Below are positions 8,159-63,170 of a stretch of 64,000 nt of DNA, piece by piece (the first letter of the stretch is position 1; each line of letters starts with the position of its first letter). The notes beneath the pieces are model-generated. The model saw only the letters and a list, made by a program, of their open reading frames with translations, had not been told where the DNA came from and made no database searches. A program made the translations under genes and the position numbers. This stretch comes from Candidatus Purcelliella pentastirinorum (GTDB taxonomy: Bacteria; Pseudomonadota; Gammaproteobacteria; Enterobacterales; Enterobacteriaceae): assembly GCF_003391335.1 (NCBI RefSeq), contig NZ_CP028374.1, positions 1 through 64,000 of the forward strand, written 5' to 3'.

Positions 8159-9178
8159 ATGAAATTTGTCGATGAAGTTGTTATATGTGCTTCAGGAGGT
8201 ACTGGTGGAAATGGATGTATTAGTTTTAAACATAATAAAAATATGAGTTATCCAATTCCTGATGGCGGGGATGGTGGAGATGGTGGTAATGTATGGTTAT
8301 TAGCAGATAGAAATTTAAGTAATTTAATTGATTATAAATTTAAAAAATATATAATTGCTTCTAATGGTAAAAATGGTGGAAGTAATGGTCGATCTGGTAA
8401 AAACGGTCGTGATATTATAATTAAAGTTCCAATTGGAACTTTAATTATAGATTATGATACGGGTGCTACAATAATTGATATAATTAATTGCAATCAAAAA
8501 ATATTATTGGTTAAAGGTGGTAAAAAGGGTTTAGGAAATATACACTGTAAATTATTTTCAAATTCTTTTTTGAATAATAAAAATAATGGTTCTATTAGTA
8601 AAAAACATTTTTTTTTATTTAGGTTTATTTTTCTAGCCAATGTTGGTATGTTAGGTATGCCAAATGTTGGTAAATCAACTTTTGTAACTAAAATATCAAA
8701 TGTTAAATCTAAGATTGGGTTATATCCATTTACGACTATTAGACCTCATTTGGGTGTTGTTCGTTTAAATAAAGAAAATTGTTTTACTATAGCTGATATA
8801 CCCGGTTTGATTGAAGGCGCATCTAAAGGTGTTGGTATGGGTGTAGATTTTTTAAAACATTTAGAAAGATGTGATATTTTATTGCATATGATTTCTTTAT
8901 CTTCTATGAAAGTAAAGAATATAATAAATGATATTAATATAATAATTTATGAATTAACTAAATATAAAAATTTATTATCCAATAAAACATGTTGGTTATT
9001 GTTTAATAAAATGGATTTATTTAATTTAAATGAAATTAAAGATATAGTAAATGCAGTTATTAAAAAATTATGTTGGAAAAGTAATTATTATATTATTTCT
9101 GCTATTAATAATACTGGAATTAAAAATTTATGTTGGGATATTGTTAATTTTATAAATAAAAATATTTCTAAAATGTAG
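8159..9178 (+). CDS. obgE: GTPase ObgE, short form
   Basis: Ribosome-associated GTPase acting in late 50S assembly. The glycine-rich Obg fold fills the first ~155 residues, followed by the G domain with P-loop G-M-P-N-V-G-K-S-T and switch motif D-I-P-G-L-I-E-G-A. The guanine-specificity motif N-K-M-D and a terminal S-A-I motif follow. I start at the second in-frame ATG (8159, MKFVDEV), which matches the family start; the first is at 8144. The protein stops at 339 aa, against 390 in E. coli, so the acidic C-terminal extension is missing. Confidence 0.95.
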   Translation: MKFVDEVVICASGGTGGNGCISFKHNKNMSYPIPDGGDGGDGGNVWLLADRNLSNLIDYKFKKYIIASNGKNGGSNGRSGKNGRDIIIKVPIGTLIIDYDTGATIIDIINCNQKILLVKGGKKGLGNIHCKLFSNSFLNNKNNGSISKKHFFLFRFIFLANVGMLGMPNVGKSTFVTKISNVKSKIGLYPFTTIRPHLGVVRLNKENCFTIADIPGLIEGASKGVGMGVDFLKHLERCDILLHMISLSSMKVKNIINDINIIIYELTKYKNLLSNKTCWLLFNKMDLFNLNEIKDIVNAVIKKLCWKSNYYIISAINNTGIKNLCWDIVNFINKNISKM

Positions 9179-17432: not shown

Positions 17433-18920
17433 TTATTTTTGCGGTTTCATAACTGGAAATAAAATAACATCTTTTATAGAATGTGAATTAGTTAATATCA
17501 TTATCAAACGATCTATTCCAATTCCTAACCCTGCAGTTGGAGGTAATCCATATTTTAATGCTTTAATATATTCATTATCATAAAATGTATATTTATTATT
17601 ATCTTTAATTTGTTTTTTAAATCTATATTCCTGTTCTTCAGGATCATTTAATTCTGAAAACCCATTAGCTAATTCATGACCGTTAATAAAAAATTCAAAT
17701 CTATCTGCAATTTCTGAATTAATATCATTTTTTTTAGCTAAAGGAGATATATCAATAGGATAATTTGTGATGAAAGTTGGATGTATTAAGTAAGGTTCTA
17801 CTGTTTTTTCAAATATTTTTTTTATTATATATCCCTTTGTGCTATTAATATTTAATTTAATATTTAATTCTTTTGCAATTTTATTTAATTCATTAAAATT
17901 ATTTATATTTTCTGAGGTTATTTTTGGGTAATATTTTATAATTGATTCTTTCATTGTCATTTTTTTAAATGGAGGCTTAAAATTAAAAATATGATTACCA
18001 TATTTAATTTTATATTTTTTTTTAATTGTTTTTGTTATTTTATATAATAATTTTTCAGTAAATTTCATTAGATCTTTATAATTTTTATAAGCTATATATA
18101 ATTCCATCATTGTAAATTCTGGATTATGATGTGTAGATATACCTTCATTTCTAAAACTTCTGTTTATTTCAAATATTTTATTAAAACCTCCTATAATTAA
18201 TCTTTTAAGAAATAATTCTGGTGAAATACGTAAATAAATATTCATATTTAAAGCATTATGATATGTTTTAAATGGTTTCGCAATTCCTCCTCCAGGAATA
18301 GATTGCATCATAGGTGTTTCTACTTCTATAAAATTATTTTTTGTCATAAATTTTCTAATTTCATGTATTATTTTTGATCTAATTATAAATTTTTTTTTTA
18401 TTTTTGCATTACTTATTAAATCTAAATATCTATATCTATATTTTAATTCTTTATTAATAACTCCATGAAATTTATTTGGAAATGGTTTTAATGATTTAGT
18501 AAGTATTTTAATATAGTTACAATAGATCGATAATTCTTTTGTATTTGTTATAAATAGTTTGCCCTTTACTCCTATAATATCTCCTATATCTAATATTTTA
18601 CATTTTTCTTTATACGAATCATTAATTAATGAGTTTTTGTTAAAATATAATTGTATTTTACCATATTCATCTTGTAAAATAATAAAAGTAGCTTTCCCCA
18701 TTATACGCAAATTTGTTATTCTACCAGCAATTTTAATATTTATATTTTTTTTTTGGAAATATATTTTTTTTTTGGAAATATATTTTTTTTTAATTTGCTT
18801 ACTATTATTTATAAAATTAAAATTATTGGGAAAAGAAAAACCTTGATATCTTAATATATCAAGTTTATTTAATCTTGATATGATTTCTTGATTTTTTTTA
18901 TTATTTTTTAATTGATTCAT
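17433..18920 (-). CDS. lysS: Lysine--tRNA ligase
   Basis: Class II lysyl-tRNA synthetase, 495 aa (E. coli 505). Motif 2 is seen in F-R-N-E-G-I-S-T-H-H-N-P-E-F and motif 3 in G-L-G-I-G-I-D-R near the end. The OB-fold anticodon domain is preceded by a variable linker that contains a 19-bp tandem duplication (18741-18791). That region reads as Lys/Ile/Tyr-rich filler without a stop. It is 12 bases downstream of prfB, the conserved prfB-lysS operon. Confidence 0.97.
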   Translation of the reverse strand: MNQLKNNKKNQEIISRLNKLDILRYQGFSFPNNFNFINNSKQIKKKYISKKKIYFQKKNINIKIAGRITNLRIMGKATFIILQDEYGKIQLYFNKNSLINDSYKEKCKILDIGDIIGVKGKLFITNTKELSIYCNYIKILTKSLKPFPNKFHGVINKELKYRYRYLDLISNAKIKKKFIIRSKIIHEIRKFMTKNNFIEVETPMMQSIPGGGIAKPFKTYHNALNMNIYLRISPELFLKRLIIGGFNKIFEINRSFRNEGISTHHNPEFTMMELYIAYKNYKDLMKFTEKLLYKITKTIKKKYKIKYGNHIFNFKPPFKKMTMKESIIKYYPKITSENINNFNELNKIAKELNIKLNINSTKGYIIKKIFEKTVEPYLIHPTFITNYPIDISPLAKKNDINSEIADRFEFFINGHELANGFSELNDPEEQEYRFKKQIKDNNKYTFYDNEYIKALKYGLPPTAGLGIGIDRLIMILTNSHSIKDVILFPVMKPQK

Positions 18921-18932
18921 TTTTTTACCATT

Positions 18933-20034
18933 TTATAGTTTCATATTCAAACTTGCTTTAATAAATTTATCCAAATTACCATTTAATACATATTGAACAT
19001 TTCTAATTTCAATACCTGTCCTAAGATCTTTTACACGAGAATTATCAAATATATAGGATCTTATTTGATTACTCCATCTTATATCAGATTTTTTATTTTC
19101 TATTTTTTGTTTTTTAATATTATTTTTTTTTATTTCTAAGTTGTACAATTTTTTTTTAATTTGTTTCATAGCAGTATTTTTATTTTTATGTTGTGATCTG
19201 TTGTTTTGACATTGTACAACAATACCTGTAGATATATGTGTTATTCTTACAGCAGATTCTGTTTTATTTACATGTTGTCCTCCTGATCCGGATGATTTAT
19301 ATACATCTATACGTAAATCATTTTGATTAATTTCAATATTAATTTTATTTTTTGTTTCCGGGTATACAAAAATTGAGCTAAAAGAGGTATGTCTTTTATT
19401 TCCTGTATTAAATGGACTTTTTCTAACTAAACGGTGTACTCCACTTTCAGTACGCAACCAACCAAATGCATATTTACCTATTACATGCAATGTTACTGAT
19501 TTAATTCCAGCTTTTTCACCATTTAATTTATTAATTATTTTACTTTTAAATCTTTTTTTCTCTATCCATCTTAAATACATTTTTAATAAAATTGAAGTCC
19601 AATCTTGAGCTTCTATTCCACCTGATCCTGATTGAAAATCTATATAACAATTATATTTGTCATATTTTTTACAAAACATTGTTTTTATTTTTAGATTATT
19701 TATTTTTATATTAATATTTTTTATATATATATTTATATCATTAAGTATGGAATTATCTTTTGTATCAATTGATAATTGAAATAATTCTTTAACATATTTT
19801 ATTTTTTTTTTTATGTTTTCTATATTATTAATAATTTCTTTTAAAATTTTATATTCTTTTTTTATTTCTTTAAAATTTTTACTTTGTTTAGATAAATATA
19901 TTTTTTTTAAATTATTTTTCATTATTATAAGATTTGCTTTATTATTTTTATAGTTAAAAATACCTCCTAATATTTTTATATTTTTTATTTAAATCTTTAA
20001 TATAACTTGTAATAGTATTAATTTCTATTTGCAT
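18933..20034 (-). CDS. prfB: Peptide chain release factor RF2, requires +1 programmed frameshift
   Basis: RF2 ends translation at UGA and UAA. The main frame holds the codon-recognition tripeptide S-P-F and the catalytic G-G-Q. The true start is an ATG at 20032-20034, giving M-Q-I-E-I-N and 26 codons in all, aligned with the first residues of E. coli RF2. That frame stops at TAA (19954-19956). A +1 shift at TTT-T then continues as N-Y-K-N and joins the long frame, for 366 aa in total (E. coli 365). The signal is AGG-AGG-TAT-TTT-TAA-C: an internal Shine-Dalgarno, a spacer codon, a slippery Phe codon and a stop. The stop is UAA where E. coli has UGA. Confidence 0.95.
19953..19968 (-). promoter_or_regulatory. 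prfB programmed +1 frameshift signal
   Basis: On the minus strand the order is an anti-rRNA sequence AGGAGG (19968-19963), one codon TAT, the slippery codon TTT, the stop TAA (19956-19954) and C. Spacing is the same as in E. coli (AGGGGG-TAT-CTT-TGA-C). tRNA-Phe can re-pair fully with UUU in the +1 frame, so slippage should be efficient. The zero frame ends here, and the +1 frame runs on to the full RF2 domains. Confidence 0.93.
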
Positions 20035-20095: not shown

Positions 20096-20554
20096 TTATT
20101 TTTTTCTTTTATTTTTAAAAAAATCTATCAGAATATCAGAACATTTTTTTGTTAAAATTTTATTTTTAATTTTATTTTTTTTTATATTGTTAATTAATAT
20201 TTTTTGTAAAATTCTTGTTATATTATTTTTATTATCATATGTTCCAAAAATTATTTTTTTTATTCTACTATAAATTAATGCTCCATAACACATTAAACAT
20301 GGCTCTAATGTTACATAAATTAAACTGTTAGTTAATCTATAATTTTTTTTAAATTTAGCAGCATTTCTTATTGCTATTATTTCAGCATGTGCTGTAGGAT
20401 CGTTATTATTTATCACACAATTTTTTCCTTCACCTATTAATTTATTATTTAATGTTATTACTGCTCCTACTGGTATCTCACCTATTTTCAATGCCTGTTC
20501 AGCTAATTTTAATGCGTATTGTATCCAATACCTTTTATTTATGTTATTTTTCAT
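20096..20554 (-). CDS. tadA: tRNA-specific adenosine deaminase
   Basis: Deaminates the wobble adenosine of tRNA-Arg(ACG) to inosine. It is 152 aa (E. coli 167, whose extra N-terminus is variable). The zinc and catalytic motifs are H-A-E-I-I-A-I-R and P-C-L-M-C. It should not be confused with RibD or cytidine deaminase: the D-P-T-A-H-A-E context and the E-P-C-L-M-C-Y-G-A-L spacing are typical of TadA. Confidence 0.94.
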   Translation of the reverse strand: MKNNINKRYWIQYALKLAEQALKIGEIPVGAVITLNNKLIGEGKNCVINNNDPTAHAEIIAIRNAAKFKKNYRLTNSLIYVTLEPCLMCYGALIYSRIKKIIFGTYDNKNNITRILQKILINNIKKNKIKNKILTKKCSDILIDFFKNKRKK

Positions 20555-60554: not shown

Positions 60555-63170
60555 ATGAAAAAAAAATATGATCCTAACTATATTGAAAAAAAAATTTATA
60601 GTTTGTGGAAAAAAAATAATTATTTTAAATTTAACAAAAAAAAAACTAAAAAAAAATATTGTATAACATTACCGCCTCCTAATATAACAGGTACATTGCA
60701 TATGGGGCATGCATTCCAACATACGTTAATAGATATTTTAATACGTTATAATCGTATGAAAGGTAAAAATACATTATGGCAAATTGGTACAGATCATGCT
60801 GGAATTGCAACACAAATACTCATTACAAAAAAAATTATAAAAAAAGGTCATGACATAAATAATTATGATAGAGATACTTTCATCAAAAAAATTTTAAAAT
60901 GGAAAGAAAAATATGGGAAAATAATAAAAAATCAAATGAAACGTTTAGGATATTTCATAGATTGGGATAGAGAGCGTTTTACAATGGATAAAAAATTTTC
61001 ATATACTGTTAAAAAAGTTTTTATTAATTTATATAAAAATAATTTGATTTATAGAACAAAAAGCATAGTTAATTGGGATACTAAACTAAATACAGTAATT
61101 TCAGATTTGGAAATAAAACATAAAAATAAAAAAGTATCTATGTGGTATATAAAATATAAATTATTGAACAACATAAAAACAAAAGATGGTAAAAAACATT
61201 TATTAATAGGAACAATACGCCCTGAAACAATTTTTGGTGATACTGCTATTATGATTAATCCTGAAGATAAACGTTATAACAATTTAATAGGATATTTTGT
61301 TAAAGTTCCTTTAATTAATCGTATTATACCTATCATTAGTGATATAAAAGCAAAAATAAAAAAAGGTAGTGGTTGTGTAAAAATAACTCCAGCTCATGAT
61401 TTTAATGATTATAAAATAGCAATTAAGTATAATTTACCTATGATAAATATTTTTACATATGATGGTAAAATATTATCTAATACTAATGTTTTTGATAGTA
61501 AAGGAAATCCTTCAACATTTTATGATAATAAAATACCTAAATCATTTCATAATCTTGATCGTTATGTTGCTAGAAAAAAAATAATAAGAAAACTAAAAAA
61601 AAATAAACTACTAAAAAAAAAATATCAATATAATACTTATATACCATATAATGAACGTAATGGAGCTATTATAGAACCCATGCTAACTAATCAATGGTAT
61701 ATTAAAATGAATAAATTAACTAAGTTAGCAATAAATTCTGTTAAAAACGGAAACATAAATTTTATTCATAAACAATATGAAAACATTTATTTTTCATGGA
61801 TGAAAAAAATAAAAGATTGGTGTATATCTCGTCAAATATGGTGGGGACACCGTATACCTGTATGGTATGATGAAAAAAATAATATTTATGTAGGACAAAA
61901 CGAAAAAAAGATAAGACTAAAATATAACATACCAAACAATAAAATATTAAAACAAGATAATGATGTATTAGATACATGGTTTTCTGCAAGCATGTGGACT
62001 TTTTCTTCATTAGGATGGCCTAAATCAAAAAAAATATTTAAACAATATCATCCAACAAATGTAATTATTTCTGGATTTGATATAATATTTTTTTGGATCG
62101 CTAGAATGATAATGATAACAATGTATATTGTAAAAGATAAAAAAAATAAACCACAGATTCCTTTTAAAAATATTTATATTACTGGTTTAATTTGTGATGA
62201 AAATGGTGAAAAAATGTCAAAATCTAAAGGAAATATTGTTGATCCTATAGATATAATAAATGGAATATCATTAAATAATATTATTAAAAAACGAACAAAA
62301 AATACGATAAAAAATAAATCATTTGTAAAAATTATTAATAACACTAAAAAAAAATTTCCTTATGGAATTAAAGCAACAGGAGCAGATCCTTTAAGATTCA
62401 CAATTGCTTCTTTATCATCAACTAACAGATTAATAAAATGGGATATGAATAGATTAGAAGGATATAAAAAATTTTGCAATAAATTATGGAATGCTAGTAA
62501 ATTTGTTATAGATAAAAGTAAAAATGTTAAATATTTATCACATAAAAATGATATTTCAATAATAGATAAATGGATTATAAGTGAATTAAATATTATCATT
62601 AAAGAATTCGAAAAATCTATAAATAATTATAGATTTGATATTGCAGCTAATAAATTATATAGTTTTATATGGAATCAATATTGTGATTGGTACATAGAAT
62701 TTATTAAACCTATAATTAATTTATTTGATGAAAATAATTCCATAGGTACTATAAATACATTATTATATGTATTAAAAATAATACTAAAATTAGCACATCC
62801 AATTATTCCATTTATTACAGAATATATATGGCAAAAATTAATTAAATATGATTTTAACAATGAATTTAATAGTATTACAATGGAAAAATTTCCAAAATAC
62901 AATAATAAATTTATAAACAAAAAATTAAATATTGATGTAATATGGTTAAAAAATACTATTATACAAATTAGAAACTTTAGAGTAAAAAGAAAAATTAAAT
63001 TCAACAAGAAAATAAAAATTATTTTTAAAAAAGATGATCTTATCAAAAAAAGAATTAAAAATTTAGGTTTTTTTATAAAAAAAATGGTAAATATAAAAAA
63101 AATATTGATAACAACAAAAGATATTAAATCTACATTTAATAATAACATTACAAATAATATTTTTTTATAA
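60555..63170 (+). CDS. valS: Valine--tRNA ligase, without the C-terminal coiled-coil arm
   Basis: Class I synthetase, 871 aa (E. coli 951). HIGH motif P-P-N-I-T-G-T-L-H-M-G-H and K-M-S-K-S-K-G-N are intact. In contrast to LeuRS, the CP1 editing motifs look functional: R-P-E-T-I-F-G-D-T and G-S-G-C-V-K-I-T-P-A-H-D-F-N-D-Y. The protein ends about 75 residues early, losing the C-terminal arm that contacts tRNA. It starts 47 bases after pepA. Confidence 0.97.
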   Translation: MKKKYDPNYIEKKIYSLWKKNNYFKFNKKKTKKKYCITLPPPNITGTLHMGHAFQHTLIDILIRYNRMKGKNTLWQIGTDHAGIATQILITKKIIKKGHDINNYDRDTFIKKILKWKEKYGKIIKNQMKRLGYFIDWDRERFTMDKKFSYTVKKVFINLYKNNLIYRTKSIVNWDTKLNTVISDLEIKHKNKKVSMWYIKYKLLNNIKTKDGKKHLLIGTIRPETIFGDTAIMINPEDKRYNNLIGYFVKVPLINRIIPIISDIKAKIKKGSGCVKITPAHDFNDYKIAIKYNLPMINIFTYDGKILSNTNVFDSKGNPSTFYDNKIPKSFHNLDRYVARKKIIRKLKKNKLLKKKYQYNTYIPYNERNGAIIEPMLTNQWYIKMNKLTKLAINSVKNGNINFIHKQYENIYFSWMKKIKDWCISRQIWWGHRIPVWYDEKNNIYVGQNEKKIRLKYNIPNNKILKQDNDVLDTWFSASMWTFSSLGWPKSKKIFKQYHPTNVIISGFDIIFFWIARMIMITMYIVKDKKNKPQIPFKNIYITGLICDENGEKMSKSKGNIVDPIDIINGISLNNIIKKRTKNTIKNKSFVKIINNTKKKFPYGIKATGADPLRFTIASLSSTNRLIKWDMNRLEGYKKFCNKLWNASKFVIDKSKNVKYLSHKNDISIIDKWIISELNIIIKEFEKSINNYRFDIAANKLYSFIWNQYCDWYIEFIKPIINLFDENNSIGTINTLLYVLKIILKLAHPIIPFITEYIWQKLIKYDFNNEFNSITMEKFPKYNNKFINKKLNIDVIWLKNTIIQIRNFRVKRKIKFNKKIKIIFKKDDLIKKRIKNLGFFIKKMVNIKKILITTKDIKSTFNNNITNNIFL

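Follow-up and report, generated by a model that had tools for sequence, protein, structure and literature searches.

Bacterial autoregulatory frameshifting has its textbook case in prfB, where UGA is believed to persist as the stop codon because no release factor but RF2 reads it. In the survey of Prince et al. (2025; PMC12421855), 98.6% of 8,164 prfB sites had TGA, 1.4% had TAA and none had TAG, the TAA sites being described as randomly distributed. The same survey reported 21 genomes with the poly-T form TTTTTGA, with TGA in all of them, and cites Baranov et al. (2002) for TGA at all prfB sites but one, a count given here as it stands in that citation. The autoregulation itself has been lost repeatedly, and its removal had no detected fitness cost in P. 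fluorescens (Lim et al. 2026; PMC13245932).

In this work, we describe the prfB site of Candidatus Purcelliella pentastirinorum, in which the zero-frame stop is UAA and the slippery site UUU_U. The first-pass annotation of this DNA treated UAA as a surprise, but the codon is already on record in the survey cited above and proved common in reduced relatives.

The prfB site and its conservation

The genome is a single contig of 479,855 bases. The window, that is, the whole stretch of 64,000 nt analysed here, has a GC content of 20%, and the gene order on its minus strand is gyrA, tadA, prfB, lysS. The features of the locus are as follows.

20096..20554, minus strand: tadA, upstream neighbour of prfB on the same strand
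20034-20032, minus strand: prfB start ATG, read directly from the window
19957..20034, minus strand: zero-frame prfB leader ORF of 26 codons, MQIEINTITSYIKDLNKKYKNIRRYF, read directly
19963..19968, minus strand: SD-like internal AGGAGG (Arg-Arg codons), read directly; the anti-SD CCTCC is present in the genome's own 16S
19960..19962, minus strand: spacer codon TAT, also the commonest spacer among relatives
19956..19959, minus strand: slippery site UUU_U (tRNA-Phe) in place of CUU_U, with slippery codon TTT at 19959-19957
19954..19956, minus strand: zero-frame stop UAA in place of UGA, the same in G001 (L004)
19953, minus strand: C, the +4 base after the stop (weak termination context)
18933..19955, minus strand: RF2 body, read in the +1 frame up to the stop ending at 18933; 340 aa, or 366 aa when the leader is counted
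19920..19922, minus strand: in-frame ATG with no SD-like sequence just upstream
17433..18920, minus strand: lysS, downstream neighbour of prfB

Direct reading of the minus strand confirmed the leader, AGGAGG, spacer and UUU_U claimed in the first-pass annotation, all spaced as in E. coli, and also its TAA rather than TGA, the TAA being found again in G001; the alternative ATG that it placed near 19922 lies at 19922. The leader ORF ends in a stop codon and is followed in the +1 frame by RF2 (NCBIfam prfB TIGR00020, 434 bits against a cut-off of 370). AGGAGG precedes the slippery TTT by one codon and matches the anti-SD of the 16S, which is intact (3' end GGATCACCTCCTT). UUU_U is a minority form of the slippery site, CUU_U being that of nearly all prfB frameshift sites; the UAA can be read by RF2 and is followed by C at 19953. 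The form of the circuit that senses RF2 alone has a UGA stop, whereas Purcelliella has UAA there and also carries prfA. A leader of about 25 codons was also found in nearly all relatives classified. RF2 appears to be made solely through programmed frameshifting in this tiny, symbiont-like genome.

By chance, the exact 16-nt motif should occur 5e-5 times in the window; at 20% GC, AGG makes up just 3.7% of Arg codons. The hexamer AGGAGG by itself occurs 10 times in the window, against about two predicted from base composition, at 60680, 52998, 35235, 22576, 19968, 19284, 18291 and 18192 on the minus strand and at 8194 and 52828 on the plus strand.

In G001, the only same-genus genome searched, RF2 is 88% identical and the 16-nt site is unchanged, while 9 of 66 leader positions and 72 of 987 in the remaining RF2 differ. 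With two genomes of the genus, this conservation may be taken as modest statistical evidence of selection. That the stop or T run of TTTTTAAC was misread or misassembled is very unlikely, since G001 carries the identical 16 nt although its leader differs; moreover, UAA sites occur in 14 further genera of the sample.

UAA sites among relatives and their origin

The prfB genes of 146 genomes, most of them from the family of Purcelliella, were classified, taking genomes under 2.5 Mb as small. The 94 small genomes comprised 20 with UAA sites, 36 with UGA sites and 38 without a recognised site, and the 52 larger ones 51 with UGA, none with UAA and one without a recognised site. UAA thus accounts for 20/56 frameshift sites in small genomes and 0/51 in large ones (Fisher p = 3.6e-7, uncorrected for relatedness), in 15 genera altogether. 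Since every large relative with a site has UGA, this codon is likely the older state. On the RF2 tree, the UAA label requires 15 changes, at least seven of them forced by well-supported branches, or 12 changes when only UAA and UGA sites are retained; this is a quick single-gene tree with long branches, and the counts do not separate gain from loss. Both stops occur within genera g134 and g151, and genus g62 combines UAA, in-frame and leader-less forms of prfB. Taken together, such a distribution suggests that UAA arose at prfB sites by several independent changes in shrunken, AT-rich relatives.

Further searches used strict UAA-only patterns, which degenerate sites escape. Among 392 family genomes, no UAA prfB site was found in any large genome; the large-genome matches (G209, G287, G355 and G415) fall outside prfB, and all four genomes have a UGA-type prfB site. 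Across 369 genomes of the class, three UAA prfB sites were found beyond that of Purcelliella, two of them in loci with 57% and 65% GC, indicating that UAA arises outside AT-rich genomes too. A scan of named genomes placed at least 15 prfB loci among the 119 matches listed, most matches being due to chance; the UAA prfB sites among the matches listed include those of Serratia symbiotica, Marinospirillum and Thiospirillum. A plasmid search returned no match.

The UAA sites of the relatives classified retain strong SD pairing. Relatives without the frameshift have mostly fused the same leader of about 25 codons in frame, which indicates that the leader belongs to RF2. Elsewhere, at L035 (G008), L151 (G156), L155 (G234) and L124, L126 and L130 (genus g155), the zero-frame stop is kept with a weak or lost SD (AAAAAT, AAAGAA, ACTGAT, AAGGAT). 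No leader was recognised before RF2 at L110 (G210), L119 (G198), L154 (G125) and L156 (G073), where loss of the N-terminus, rather than fusion of the frames, may have done away with the frameshift.

At the same place, free-living relatives have AGG GGG TAT CTT TGA C TAC. The four differences from the Purcelliella site (AGGGGG to AGGAGG, CTT to TTT, TGA to TAA and TAC to TAT) all run from G/C to A/T, and the best explanation is therefore AT pressure under retained function. In the small genomes, the loci with UAA sites have a median GC of 21.9%, compared with 28.1% for those with UGA sites (p = 0.013, uncorrected). AT-biased mutation would thus be the simplest cause of UAA. Nevertheless, UGA remains the majority at small-genome prfB sites (36/56), whereas 86% of gene stops are UAA in Purcelliella, the one genome in which gene-stop usage was measured; this hints at a lingering preference for UGA at the site.

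The slippery codon and the decoding parts of the cell

The combination of UUU_U with UAA was found in Purcelliella, G001 (L004) and G087 (L087). UUU_U had been proposed as a better slippery codon than CUU_U, compensating for competition by RF1. The first part of this proposal is wrong for E. coli, in which, according to the passages of the review by Atkins et al. that deal with these sites (PMC5009743), shifting is far more efficient on CUU_U than on UUU_U, which yields much less and is the form of only a small minority of species. The compensation fares no better and we reject it, since UUU_U shows no association with stop identity in the small genomes (3/20 UAA sites vs 9/36 UGA sites; p = 0.51). 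Other routes to the present site were also rejected. The tRNA-Leu(GAG) gene, whose loss might lie behind UUU_U, is kept; tRNA-Phe(GAA) and tRNA-Trp(CCA) are present as well. MiaA begins the modification of A37 in tRNA-Phe; its loss, which might make this tRNA slip better, is contradicted by MiaA matches in 72/72 genomes searched, Purcelliella included. Reinitiation in the +1 frame driven by the SD would need a start codon, and there is no ATG, GTG or TTG at a suitable distance past AGGAGG. A further shift site, GUU_U, is seen at L089 (G145), which reads AGGAGG TAT GTT TGA; three fellow genomes of its genus have UUU_U, and an upstream in-frame ATG could serve L089 as an alternative start.

The first-pass annotation pointed out that UAA is also read by RF1, which is correct, and asked whether prfA is present. 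The gene is retained, at G000:C1:400594-401568, and its translation has the PAT motif. RF2 carries SPF and GGQ, and a Ser corresponds to residue 246 of the E. coli protein, for which K-12 has a weak Thr. In 111 ORFs sampled from the window and a further 100 kb, the gene stops are 96 UAA, 11 UGA and 4 UAG; as UGA still ends 11 of them, RF2 keeps a UGA-specific job, though a small one. C follows just 4 of the 96 sampled UAA stops, so that the C after the prfB UAA is unusual for this genome. The use of SD sequences is low, with 22/111 starts. No match to RF3 (prfC) above the cut-off was found in the genome; among the small genomes, RF3 occurs in 4/20 with UAA vs 18/36 with UGA (p = 0.045, uncorrected for relatedness). 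In E. coli K-12, prfB frameshifting rises upon loss of RF3 (PMC5373646), and such a loss may be a candidate compensation for UAA.

What the site may sense

Ribosomes would translate the 26-codon leader until AGGAGG pairs with the anti-SD of the 16S, and would then stall while UAA occupies the A site. There, either termination would occur or tRNA-Phe would slip by +1 on UUU_U, giving full RF2. Termination at UAA, and hence RF2 synthesis, would respond to both RF1 and RF2, according to how much of the UAA reading each performs. RF2-specific feedback should be weaker than in the UGA version because both factors read UAA. The level of frameshifting could be low, given that CUU_U is the efficient site of E. 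coli and that UAA is normally a strong stop. Both the occurrence of frameshifting and what it senses are inferred here from the DNA sequence. We regard it as probable that this is a working +1 frameshift site, rewritten by AT pressure from an E. coli-type ancestor, and that its most likely response is to RF1 and RF2 combined. A circuit reading RF1 plus RF2 is plausible, and there is a precedent in rsbV of B. subtilis, where a swap of UGA for UAA removed the factor-specific response (PMC8073009). It is a more tentative suggestion that the RF2 thermostat was repeatedly rewired in reduced AT-rich relatives, from a sensor of RF2 to one of total UAA-reading capacity, with RF1 repressing RF2 synthesis. 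If true, the rewired sensor would suit genomes that use UAA as the stop of almost every gene.

If RF2 does nearly all of the UAA reading, the frameshift would work with feedback that is in effect RF2-specific and almost unchanged, and the change of stop would be nearly neutral. We consider this rather unlikely, though it has several points in its favour. The RF2 of Purcelliella has Ser instead of the weak K-12 Thr at the residue-246 position, Prince et al. argue that RF2 mainly reads UAA in most bacteria (PMC12421855), and E. coli synthesises roughly nine times as much RF2 as RF1 (PMC5373646). We set up a simple partition model that assumes 30% frameshifting; with an RF1:RF2 ratio of 0.11, taken from E. 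coli synthesis rates (PMC5373646), the log-gain to RF2 drops only from -0.70 for UGA to -0.63 for UAA, whereas with equal amounts of the two factors it is -0.35. On the other hand, replacement of UGA by UAA at rsbV of B. subtilis left no response to knockdown of RF2, nor to that of RF1 (PMC8073009), which indicates that a UAA site can be indifferent to the loss of either factor alone. It is improbable, in our view, that frameshifting runs at a fixed, constitutive level, with vestigial regulation and the site as a step towards frame fusion. Such a course would fit the 38/94 small genomes in which no site was recognised (in many of these the leader and RF2 share one frame), the three forms of prfB in genus g62 and the removal of the regulation in P. 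fluorescens at no measurable cost (PMC13245932). However, Purcelliella and its sister species both have an intact SD and slippery site, correctly spaced, and the +4 C, and UAA sites keep strong SD pairing, although efficient frameshifting alone could explain the pairing.

It is quite doubtful that RF2 is made from the ATG at 19922, with the leader and site as relics. In favour of this, the ATG shares the frame of RF2 and recurs in G001, few starts of the genome have an SD (22/111), and the leader seems to have been lost entirely at L110, L119, L154 and L156. Nevertheless, the residues between the site and the ATG align with the RF2 of relatives, the relatives that lack the frameshift mostly retain the leader in frame, and in a genome of 20% GC, AGGAGG and the +4 C should have eroded if they were relics. 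Slippage of RNA polymerase on the T run, restoring the frame, is very improbable: slippage on long poly(A) runs does rescue broken genes in insect endosymbionts, but the bacterial example in the relevant passage of the review has runs of nine (PMC5009743), and the run in prfB has five T.

The repeated replacement of UGA by UAA in one clade offers natural replicates with which the importance of RF2 specificity can be examined. The same replicates bear on the tolerance of cross-talk by RF1 and on whether the circuit is lost after a change to UAA.

With its leader of about 25 codons, SD-like hexamer, single spacer codon, four-base slippery site, RF2-readable stop followed by C, RF2 in the +1 frame and lysS downstream, the Purcelliella locus is much like the E. 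coli-type site. It differs from the E. coli-type AGG GGG TAT CTT TGA C in having UAA, UUU_U and AGGAGG in place of UGA, CUU_U and AGGGGG. UAA as the zero-frame stop is shared with the published TAA class (1.4% of sites; PMC12421855), but that class is reported as CTTTAA, whereas the slippery codon is UUU in Purcelliella, G001 (L004) and G087 (L087). The low GC, the UUU_U read by tRNA-Phe and the retained SD and spacing recall the published poly-T class (TTTTTGA, 21 genomes), in which the stop is always UGA; Purcelliella pairs UUU_U with UAA. UAA alone and UUU_U alone were thus already known, and the combination UUU_UAA is absent from the published survey (PMC12421855). That survey describes UAA sites as randomly distributed; in the family of Purcelliella they were found only in small genomes (20/56 vs 0/51), and this distribution is new.
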